A program made the position numbers and the translations under genes. Of a DNA stretch of 43,841 bases, positions 1 to 43,841 are shown in pieces. Numbering within the stretch: position 1 is the stretch's first letter; each line of letters starts with the position of its first letter. The notes beneath the pieces are model-generated. The model ran no database searches. It saw only the letters and a program-made list of their open reading frames with translations, and was not told where the DNA came from. The stretch comes from Oscillochloris sp. (GTDB taxonomy: Bacteria; Chloroflexota; Chloroflexia; Chloroflexales; Chloroflexaceae). The stretch spans positions 1 to 43,841 of the forward strand of contig JAAUQO010000019.1 of assembly GCA_012032775.1 (NCBI GenBank). The letters are read 5' to 3'.

Positions 1-279
1 AGGCGTATCGACCGGCGGCGCAGTCGCCGCCGGCGCATTGGCAACGGCGGTCGCGGTAGCCGCAAGTGCCGCCAGCGTCGCAGCAGGAGCAGGGTCATTG
101 CCGGAGACCGGCGCATTCGGATCGGGGGTTGCCGTAACAATCACTACCACCGGTTGGTTAGTCGGCTGTTGATCGATCGGCAAACCGGAGCAAGCGGAAA
201 GAACCAGAGCGGACAGCGCCGCAATGACGGCGGCAAGGGTTGCACGCCTTGGGGCGCGCTCAGAGGCTGGATGCGACAT
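1..279 (-). CDS. Lipoprotein, N-terminal part (runs off the window)
   Basis: The first 93 codons of a minus-strand gene are present; the rest lies beyond position 1. It begins with ATG at 279, preceded by GGAGA about 8 bases upstream. The protein has a basic N-terminus (SERAPRRAT), a hydrophobic stretch and a lipobox LSAC at about residue 31, so it should be a lipid-anchored exported protein. After the cysteine comes a Pro/Thr/Ala-rich linker with the phrase VVVIVTATPDPN, a style often seen in exported Chloroflexota lipoproteins (established only as a general impression). No functional domain is inside the window, so the role cannot be told. Confidence 0.7.
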   Translation of the reverse strand, partial: MSHPASERAPRRATLAAVIAALSALVLSACSGLPIDQQPTNQPVVVIVTATPDPNAPVSGNDPAPAATLAALAATATAVANAPAATAPPVDTP

Positions 280-743
280 GCAGCGTTCTCCTCAAACATC
301 AATCATCACCCGGCGGTTGGATTCGGCACCATGACATTATGTAGCACCATGGTACCGGCAGCGCATAGAATATGGTTACATCTTATGCTGTATCACAGGC
401 ACATGATATGTTAATCCGGCGTAAATAAAACCCCTATAAAAGAGGCAACGGCCGTCTTACGACGGCCGCGAGGAATAAGAGGCATATGGGGGCGGCATGC
501 GGATTGCCGAGGCCGGAGCTTCGGCGCGTGATAGCCGCCGCAACTACCACGCAGGTGTGCTCTTACCATAGCAATTCATGTGCCGAGTAGCGCACCTAAC
601 CCCGGCCTATCCAATTAGATCGCCATCCATGCCTCAGGATATCGCCGACATGAGTATCTGCAATCAGCCGGCGGATCGGGTATACTTTATTGGACAAGTC
701 CAAAAAAAGCATCCGCCGGTTGAGTGCGTCCGAAGGAGTGACG
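280..743. other. Divergent intergenic region (no gene)
   Basis: About 460 bases between the lipoprotein (minus) and the M20 hydrolase (plus). It holds an 8-bp GC-rich hairpin at 449-468 (CGGCCGTC, loop TTAC, GACGGCCG) without a T-run, and a possible promoter/operator at 681-703. Small open frames here show no coding character. Confidence 0.5.
681..703 (+). promoter_or_regulatory. Possible -10 box and overlapping operator of the M20 gene
   Basis: TATACT at 681-686 is a good -10 box, though no convincing -35 stands 17 bases upstream. It is followed at 690-703 by the inverted repeat TTGGAC-AA-GTCCAA, placed where a repressor would cover the transcription start. The hydrolase starts 41 bases further on. 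The regulator is unknown. Confidence 0.35.
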
Positions 744-41502: not shown

Positions 41503-41528
41503 CTTTGGGAAGCAAGATCCGCAACTCT

Positions 41529-42938
41529 ATGGCTACCATTCGTACATCGTTCGCTGTCGCCCTTGGCAAAGCCGCCGGCCGGTTCTCGCGCAGCGTCGGC
41601 GCAGGTGGCGGCACAACCCTGCCCGGTGCAATCGCCCGCCGCCTCGATCCGCAGGTGCTCCGCTCGCTGAGTGCCGGCTTACCCCATGGCGTGCTGCTCT
41701 GCGCCGGAACGAACGGCAAAACCACCACCACCCGGATGATCGCCGAGATTTTGCGCGCCCACGGCGAACGGGTATTGCACAACCGCGCCGGGGCCAATCT
41801 GATCGCCGGCCTCACCAGCACTGCGCTTGCCGATGCCGACTGGCTGGCGCGCCCGCGTACCACGATCGGCCTGTTCGAGACCGACGAGGCGGCGTTGCCG
41901 CAGGCGATCACTGAGACGCAGCCGCGCCTGGTCTTGATCCATAATCTTTTCCGTGATCAGCTCGACCGCTACGGCGAGATCGACACAATCGCCGGTGCGT
42001 GGCGGGCCGCATTGGCTGTGTTGCCCGCCGATGCCTGGGTGGTGCTGAATGCCGACGACCCGGCGGTGGCCGATCTTGGGCGCGATCTGACGGCACAGGT
42101 GTTGTATTACGGCCTTGATGATGCGAATCAGGCAAGCGGCGCGGCCGCACACATCGCCGACTCGCAATTCTGCCGCCGTTGTGGTCACCGTTTCGCGTAT
42201 GCGCTGGCCTTTTATGCCCACATTGGCCATTACACATGCCCGCAGTGCGGCAATCGTCGCCCTGAGCCGCAGGTGCGTCTGATCCGGCTCGATCTGCAAG
42301 GCACCACCGGCAGCCGGCTCTACCTCAGTTATCCCGGCGGCGCAATCGAGATCGATCTGCCGCTGCCCGGCCTCTACAATGCGCTCAACGGCCTGGCCGC
42401 CTTCAGCATCGCCCATGTGCTCGGCATTCCGCCGGCAACCGCGCGGGCTGCGTTGGAGCGCTTCAGTGCGGCGTTCGGGCGGATCGAACGGCTTACTGCC
42501 GGGCCTGCCGGGGCGCCATTGTTGATCGCTCTGATCAAAAACCCGGTCGGTGCGAGTGAGACAGTGCGGATGCTTACTGCCGGCGTCGCCGCAGAATCCG
42601 CCGAGCTCCACCTGATGATCGCGATCAACGACAAATATGCCGACGGCACCGATGTGAGCTGGCTCTGGGATGCGGATTTTGAGGCATTGGCGGGCCGGGT
42701 TGCCTCGGTTGTTGTTGGCGGCACCCGCGCCGAAGATATGGCCGTGCGCCTGAAGTACGCCGGCCTCGCCGTCGAACATCTGACGGTGATTTCCGAATTG
42801 CCCGGCGCAATTGATCGCGCACTCAAAAGCTTGCCTGCCGGCGCTACACTGTATATCTTGCCTACCTACACTGCCATGCTTGAGTTGCGGGCCGAGTTGG
42901 TGCGCCGCAGTTGGGCCAGGCCATTTTGGGAAGAGTAG
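41529..42938 (+). CDS. murT: MurT-like lipid II isoglutaminyl synthase subunit
   Basis: 469 residues. Mur-ligase family: GTNGKTTTTRMIAEIL (P-loop), ETDEAALPQ, NLFRDQLDRYGE, NADDPAVADL, and a four-Cys zinc ribbon CRRCGHRF...CPQCG typical of MurT. The C-terminal DUF1727-like part has INDKYADGTDVSWLWD. MurT works with the glutaminase GatD to amidate D-Glu of lipid II in Gram-positive and other bacteria. No gatD follows within the window: the next gene starts at 43007 and is unrelated. ATG 41529 is chosen because the conserved region starts here. Confidence 0.85.
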   Translation: MATIRTSFAVALGKAAGRFSRSVGAGGGTTLPGAIARRLDPQVLRSLSAGLPHGVLLCAGTNGKTTTTRMIAEILRAHGERVLHNRAGANLIAGLTSTALADADWLARPRTTIGLFETDEAALPQAITETQPRLVLIHNLFRDQLDRYGEIDTIAGAWRAALAVLPADAWVVLNADDPAVADLGRDLTAQVLYYGLDDANQASGAAAHIADSQFCRRCGHRFAYALAFYAHIGHYTCPQCGNRRPEPQVRLIRLDLQGTTGSRLYLSYPGGAIEIDLPLPGLYNALNGLAAFSIAHVLGIPPATARAALERFSAAFGRIERLTAGPAGAPLLIALIKNPVGASETVRMLTAGVAAESAELHLMIAINDKYADGTDVSWLWDADFEALAGRVASVVVGGTRAEDMAVRLKYAGLAVEHLTVISELPGAIDRALKSLPAGATLYILPTYTAMLELRAELVRRSWARPFWEE

Positions 42939-43006
42939 GGAACCATCGGCACTTCATCGCCGTCATAGGGGCAGATCAACAGACACCCCAACGTCAGGAG
43001 ACAGCG

Positions 43007-43516
43007 ATGATCCTTCGTACCTCTGCATTGCGTACCGCTCTGATCGCCCTGTTTGTGTTGCCGGCTCTGCTCCTCAGCGCCTGTGGTTCGCAGGTATCCC
43101 CGGCCTTCTCCGAAATCAATCAAGGTCTGAGTGAAACCTCGTCGGAAAGCACATCCGGCGCAGACTCAGTTGCGCCGCTGCCGGCTCCAACCGTGCTCGC
43201 GGCAAGTGATCTCGAACGCCCGGCTACGGCAGAGCCGGTGGTGGCCGCAGTCGAAGCCGAGAGCGGCGGCGCCGGTGGCGGCAAGTCAAGCACGCGCCTC
43301 GATGACGCCCGACAGGCCTTGCGGTATATCCTCCATCAGCTCGGGCCTCAGGACCGCTTCAACATCGTCGACTTCTCGATCGAGGCGCGGCGCTTCCGCG
43401 ATGGAGTCAGCCGCATTCATCGGAGGGGATTTGCCTGCGCAGCGCAACCTGATCAGCGGCAACCTGCTACACGGGATCATACTCACCAACAGCAATGGGC
43501 ATGTGATCCAGGGTAA
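43007..43516 (+). pseudogene. Lipoprotein leader fused to a fragment of a VWA domain (chimeric, disrupted)
   Basis: ATG 43007 has AGGAG upstream. Residues 1-25 form a lipoprotein signal with lipobox LSAC, then a Ser/Ala/Pro-rich linker to about residue 92. At about 43283 the text changes to KSSTRLDDARQALRYILHQL and GPQDRFNIVDFSIEARRF, which is the middle of a von Willebrand A domain without its MIDAS start (DxSxS). After about 43410 the frame no longer makes sense and stops at 43516. Abrupt changes suggest joined fragments rather than one gene. Confidence 0.5.
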
Positions 43517-43841
43517 CTCGATTGGTGCATCGGTGACAGGCGGCGAGCCGGTGGCGAACGACGCGACCGGAAAACCCGAAGCGTCCGACAAGCCCGAGAA
43601 GGCCGCCGTCCTGCGGACATTCACCGCCGCGGTGGTGTTCGTCATCGACTCGACCATCTCCATGGGGCCGTACATCGATCGGACCCGCGAAGCCGTCCGC
43701 CGTATCTACGGAAAGGTCGAAAAGGCGGGCCTGCTCGATCAGGTGAAGTTCGGATTGATCGCCTATCGGTCCAACGTGGAGGCTTCGCCGGGACTGGAGT
43801 ACGTGTCGAAGGTTTACGCGGATCCGACCGAGGTCAAGGAC
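43404..43841 (+). pseudogene. Mosaic open frame: beta-helix piece then a different VWA domain (partial)
   Basis: In a different frame from the lipoprotein: first FIGGDLPAQRNLISGNLL and GHVIQGNSIG, typical of right-handed parallel beta-helix repeats, then from about 43540 EPVANDATGKPEASDKPEK and VVFVIDSTISMGPYIDRTRE, a VWA domain with a MIDAS motif DSTIS of the type seen in some kinase-associated (PpkA-like) proteins. It has no start of its own and runs off the window. Confidence 0.45.

Follow-up and report, generated by a model that had tools for sequence, protein, structure and literature searches.

Architecture of the contig end

The window analysed here, that is, the whole stretch of DNA under study, is the entire contig C152 (43841 bases; G000:C152:1-43841) of a draft genome of 374 contigs (G000; 93.4% completeness, 5.5% contamination), and its tail is the very end of that contig. 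Positions 43007–43841 resolve into four successive pieces, referred to as segments A to D, with the last ~560 bases joining fragments of different genes. These pieces and the gene that precedes them are arranged as follows:

41505–42938, + strand: murT, encoding the lipid II isoglutaminyl synthase subunit MurT; the true upstream neighbour of the lipoprotein gene
43007 to ~43282, + strand: segment A, the authentic 5' part of a lipoprotein gene, with a signal peptide, a lipobox Cys at residue 26 and a low-complexity linker
~43283–43412, + strand: segment B, a central part of a VIT/VWA domain that does not belong to the lipoprotein gene, in frame with segment A
~43413–43526, + strand: segment C, a parallel beta-helix repeat in the next frame, which differs from that of segments A and B
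~43527–43841, + strand: segment D, a linker plus the beginning of a VWA domain from a family whose named members are proteobacterial, in frame with segment C

The frame shared by segments A and B has a stop at 43514–43516, the frame shared by segments C and D is open up to the contig end, and codon usage, profiled with the window as training set, places the switch of coding frame between segments B and C, at ~43410. A preliminary description of this sequence had read its end as a mosaic of unrelated protein pieces that included beta-helix repeats in another frame. Both readings are borne out, the former by profile matches, homology searches and the frame change, and the latter by a match to the model TIGR03804 and by the shift in codon usage. 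The junctions that it placed near 43283 and 43413 also stand, but the third, given as 43540, lies nearer 43525, since the motif ASVT is already present at 43527. The tail encodes no continuous product of the kind required of a functional modular adhesin, in that the C/D frame differs from the A/B frame and segment B lacks the DxSxS strand, beginning past the MIDAS strand and ending mid-domain, after which the frame shifts. A DNA search of the genome with its own tail (E ≤ 0.001) returned the self match only and no second copy, and a search with positions 42900–43841 against 40 relatives returned a single match (28 bases at 93%, G034, E 6e-4), which we read as chance or as a conserved VWA motif. 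Nothing in the window matched Rfam at gathering scores.

The lipoprotein gene and its missing half

The murT gene matches NF045635 with E 1.1e-85 and 288 bits (the model's own cut-off being 800) and MurT_C with E 3.4e-34. Matches to it at E ≤ 0.001 were found in all 41 genomes compared, the window's own included, with the best value in G023 being only 4e-9 and probably representing another Mur ligase. Segment A encodes the leader MILRTSALRTALIALFVLPALLLSAC, followed by the low-complexity linker, and the closest match to this leader in 40 related genomes comes from G022 (E 7.2e-8; blastp E 2e-4). The murT-adjacent lipoprotein of G022 has 481 residues and comprises a leader, a Pro/Ala-rich linker, a region of ~130 residues and a VWA domain. 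Its contig (G022:C102) encodes MurT residues 366–476 at bases 2–334, upstream of the lipoprotein gene, and this piece overlaps with a second G022 contig (L122), which encodes MurT residues 4–432 and ends there.

Of the 24 murT loci retrieved from relatives (L106–L129), 5 have the lipoprotein body downstream of murT and on the same strand (L106, L107, L114, L119 and L120), and G022:C102 has it as well. It is absent from the ~1500 bases following murT in 14 of these 24 loci, and the other 5 have less than ~1500 bases of downstream sequence. Six related genomes share the order murT, then VWA lipoprotein, which is not universal among the relatives.

At E ≤ 0.001, the genome under study contains one match to the leader (segment A) and one to the body, the latter on contig C119. 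Positions 7523–8578 of C119 (minus strand) are the sole own-genome match to the G022 lipoprotein body at this threshold (72% identity, E 2.2e-158) and belong to a terminal open frame of 374 codons (8644 to 7523, minus strand), which is truncated by the contig end. This frame shares 71% identity over 365 residues with the intact murT-adjacent VWA lipoprotein of G022 and contains a VWA domain (VWA_4, E 3.5e-13), with no Pfam name assigned to its counterpart of the ~130-residue region. Given the single front match and the single body match in the assembly, together with the gene order in relatives, segment A and the C119 terminal frame most likely make up one split gene, with C152 and C119 as probable neighbours. 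No word of 10 bases or more is common to positions 43100–43841 and the opening 400 bases of C119 in reversed orientation; as the contigs do not overlap, the link depends on homology, on gene order and on the correct binning of both contigs.

By our count, the distance from the lipobox Cys to the LRAGE motif comprises 66 residues on segment A and 26 on C119, compared with ~117 in G022 and ~90 in L106 (the linker of L107 is longer), so the two contigs may between them contain nearly all of the linker. Taken together, segment A and the C119 frame match the murT-adjacent VWA lipoproteins of relatives (G022:C102, L131; G012, L106) in the order of parts, in the domains present and in following murT, but what is a single gene in those relatives is here split over two contigs, and part of the linker may be missing. 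We conclude that the sequence after segment A in C152 is not the continuation of the lipoprotein gene. The lipoprotein leader and linker, previously counted as the first piece of the mosaic, are indeed present, but as a genuine gene start and not as part of the artefact.

Relatives of segments B, C and D

The protein encoded by segment B begins STRLDDARQALRYILHQLGPQDRFNIVDFS and matches the VIT/VWA model TIGR03788 with E 2e-4 and 19.9 bits, far under the model's cut-off. Of 399 other genomes of the phylum, 10 contain relatives at E ≤ 0.001 (best E 6.5e-7, 52% identity). Compared by eye with six relatives, the segment corresponds to the residues following DTSGSM, and one relative scanned whole (L096) contains VIT and VWA domains. 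The segment had nothing better than E 0.46 in its own genome and 7 weak matches among plasmids (best E 0.02).

Segment C, with the protein sequence FIGGDLPAQRNLISGNLLHGIILTNSNGHVIQGNSIG, reaches 19.5 bits against the parallel beta-helix repeat model TIGR03804 (cut-off 19.45, E 5.8e-4). Its own genome contains several long beta-helix frames, of which the best shares 45% identity (E 1.7e-4), and segment C had no match in 157 other genomes of the class at E ≤ 1e-7. A beta-helix search of viral contigs yielded 41 pattern-matching stretches, none of which was confirmed.

Segment D encodes ASVTGGEP...AAVVFVIDSTISMGPYIDRTREAV..., the start of a VWA domain, and a scan with one genome per species recovered 68 related loci, with the best match in Methylococcus capsulatus (77% over 82 residues) and 71% identity in Defluviicoccus. 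By our grouping of their titles, 67 of these loci are from proteobacteria in the wide sense (3 of delta-type) and one is from a metagenome assembly. Across 399 further genomes of the phylum, segment D had no match at E ≤ 1e-6, and in its own genome the sole other match up to E 10 is the different VWA domain of C119 (22%, E 0.0135). Twelve D-family proteins were inspected and have ~200 residues of their own kind ahead of the domain, where no beta-helix was seen. The motif VID was found in 54 of the 68 loci, 47 of which carry [VI][AG]SV[TS] upstream. In the window, ASVT lies 38 residues ahead of VID, within the range of 28 to 56 in the D relatives listed, so segment D would start at or before 43527, unless ASVT is common to segment C by chance. 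Among plasmids, segment D had protein matches in 124 records (114 of them Klebsiella), and the best-ranked DNA match was ~70% over two thirds of the segment, so these records contain no close source. Against solved structures there was one match only, at chance level (E 0.99). In Azotobacter vinelandii, the D-family VWA gene (L054 2344–4338) has a Virul_Fac (PF10139) gene nearby on its upstream side and an ABC transporter gene on its downstream side.

The match of segment B to TIGR03788 and that of segment D to Methylococcus confirm the earlier reading of the middle of one VWA domain and, at the end of the tail, the start of a second. Searching each segment separately for its best genome, as had been proposed, identified relatives, but no close one of segment B or C in their own genome and no exact source genome for segment B, C or D.

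Origin of the tail

Positions 43283–43841 are very probably a chimeric contig end produced during sequencing or assembly, and not a natural patchwork gene (probability roughly 95%). The preliminary description had favoured chimeric reads, and a chimeric origin is supported by the missing 3' half at the end of C119, by the murT gene order and by segment D, whose family has proteobacterial named relatives and was not found in the 399 other genomes of the phylum. The joined sequence occupies a contig end, the continuation of the broken gene is found elsewhere in the assembly (by homology and gene order), and the joined pieces come from unrelated genes, of which at least one is foreign to the lineage.

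Low-complexity linkers are places where assemblies often fail. In the natural order, murT would be followed by one lipoprotein gene encoding a signal peptide, a Pro/Ala/Ser/Gly linker, ~130 unnamed residues and a VWA domain. The assembly would have broken inside the low-complexity linker, leaving the remainder of the gene as the C119 terminal frame, and C152 would have been extended past the break through three short scraps of other genes, probably from other community members. We infer that either a chimeric read or an assembler path was the cause, with segments A to D joined by reads or graph paths with common short sequences; low-depth reads, or graph paths with common short words, may have added the foreign scraps. 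Judged without the parent sequences, the A/B join at GGAGGGKS (motif GGGK) resembles the SGSM-G-K start of B-type domains, so that both parents could share the motif, and the C/D join at IGASVTGG (motif ASVTG) would be compatible with a beta-helix turn as well as with the D motif.

That metagenome assemblies contain chimeric contigs is already well described. In the available text, one report treats chimeric sequence contamination (PMC10978663) and another treats shared k-mers (PMC7299287); together they cover the joining of different organisms in one contig and the linking of genomes in the graph through common k-mers or through sequencing errors. The present case is like those covered there in joining sequence of different organisms, and differs from them, as far as that text goes, in that three short pieces (~110–315 bases) are chained at one contig end.

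Against a chimera stand the lack of overlap between C119 and C152, the murT loci of relatives without the body downstream and the absence of an exact source for segments B, C and D among the search results. A further observation that fits it poorly is that VWA fragments make up two of the three foreign pieces and resemble in this the gene that they interrupt, which is beyond the expectation of random joining. The 6.27 Mb genome contains 29 VWA_2 matches (E ≤ 0.001), and by a rough estimate no more than a few in a thousand random pieces of this size would fall in a VWA domain. Homology-guided joining fails to explain the excess, as the junctions fall at non-equivalent positions of the domains, and the double occurrence of VWA among the foreign pieces is left unexplained, as a coincidence or an unnamed bias.

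The same VWA content, shared by two of the three inserted pieces and by the lipoprotein's own body, would suit a real and recent patchwork, in which fragments of adhesion-type genes had recombined into the lipoprotein gene in the organism or in part of its population, as would the common frames of A with B and of C with D. We consider such an event very improbable, however, as the end of C119 carries an intact body of this kind and no second leader was found in the assembly, the truncation of segment B at both sides and the ensuing frame shift leave no working product, segment D was not found in the 399 other genomes of the phylum, and the mosaic extends to the very end of the contig. Still less credence is given to a variant in which VWA and beta-helix fragments from different lineages reside inside the linker at a real locus in part of the population, with C119 carrying the intact allele. 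Just as hard to credit as this variant is a single false join, at A/B, beyond which B-C-D would be a true stretch of another organism's genome: segments C and D do share one frame, but segments B and C each hold only part of a domain, differ in frame and meet within ~10 bases, and the 12 D-family proteins inspected have ~200 residues of their own kind ahead of the domain, with no beta-helix seen there.

As an ordinary assembly artefact, which the chimeric reading makes of it, the sequence 43283–43841 is to be trimmed and not annotated. Left in place, it could lead a gene caller to predict a beta-helix/VWA fusion of mixed origin, and such a protein might be mistaken for horizontal transfer from proteobacteria.

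Other contig ends

As a control, the codon-frame profile was applied to 18 other contig starts, many of which show a single frame to the end and several of which are noisy or change frame. At the opposite end of C152 (window 1–700), codon usage indicates no confident coding frame. Frames with beta-helix repeats lie near several other contig ends of the same genome (G000:C215 73–2391, C107 38–532 and C192 342–479), which is consistent with repeats breaking the assembly.
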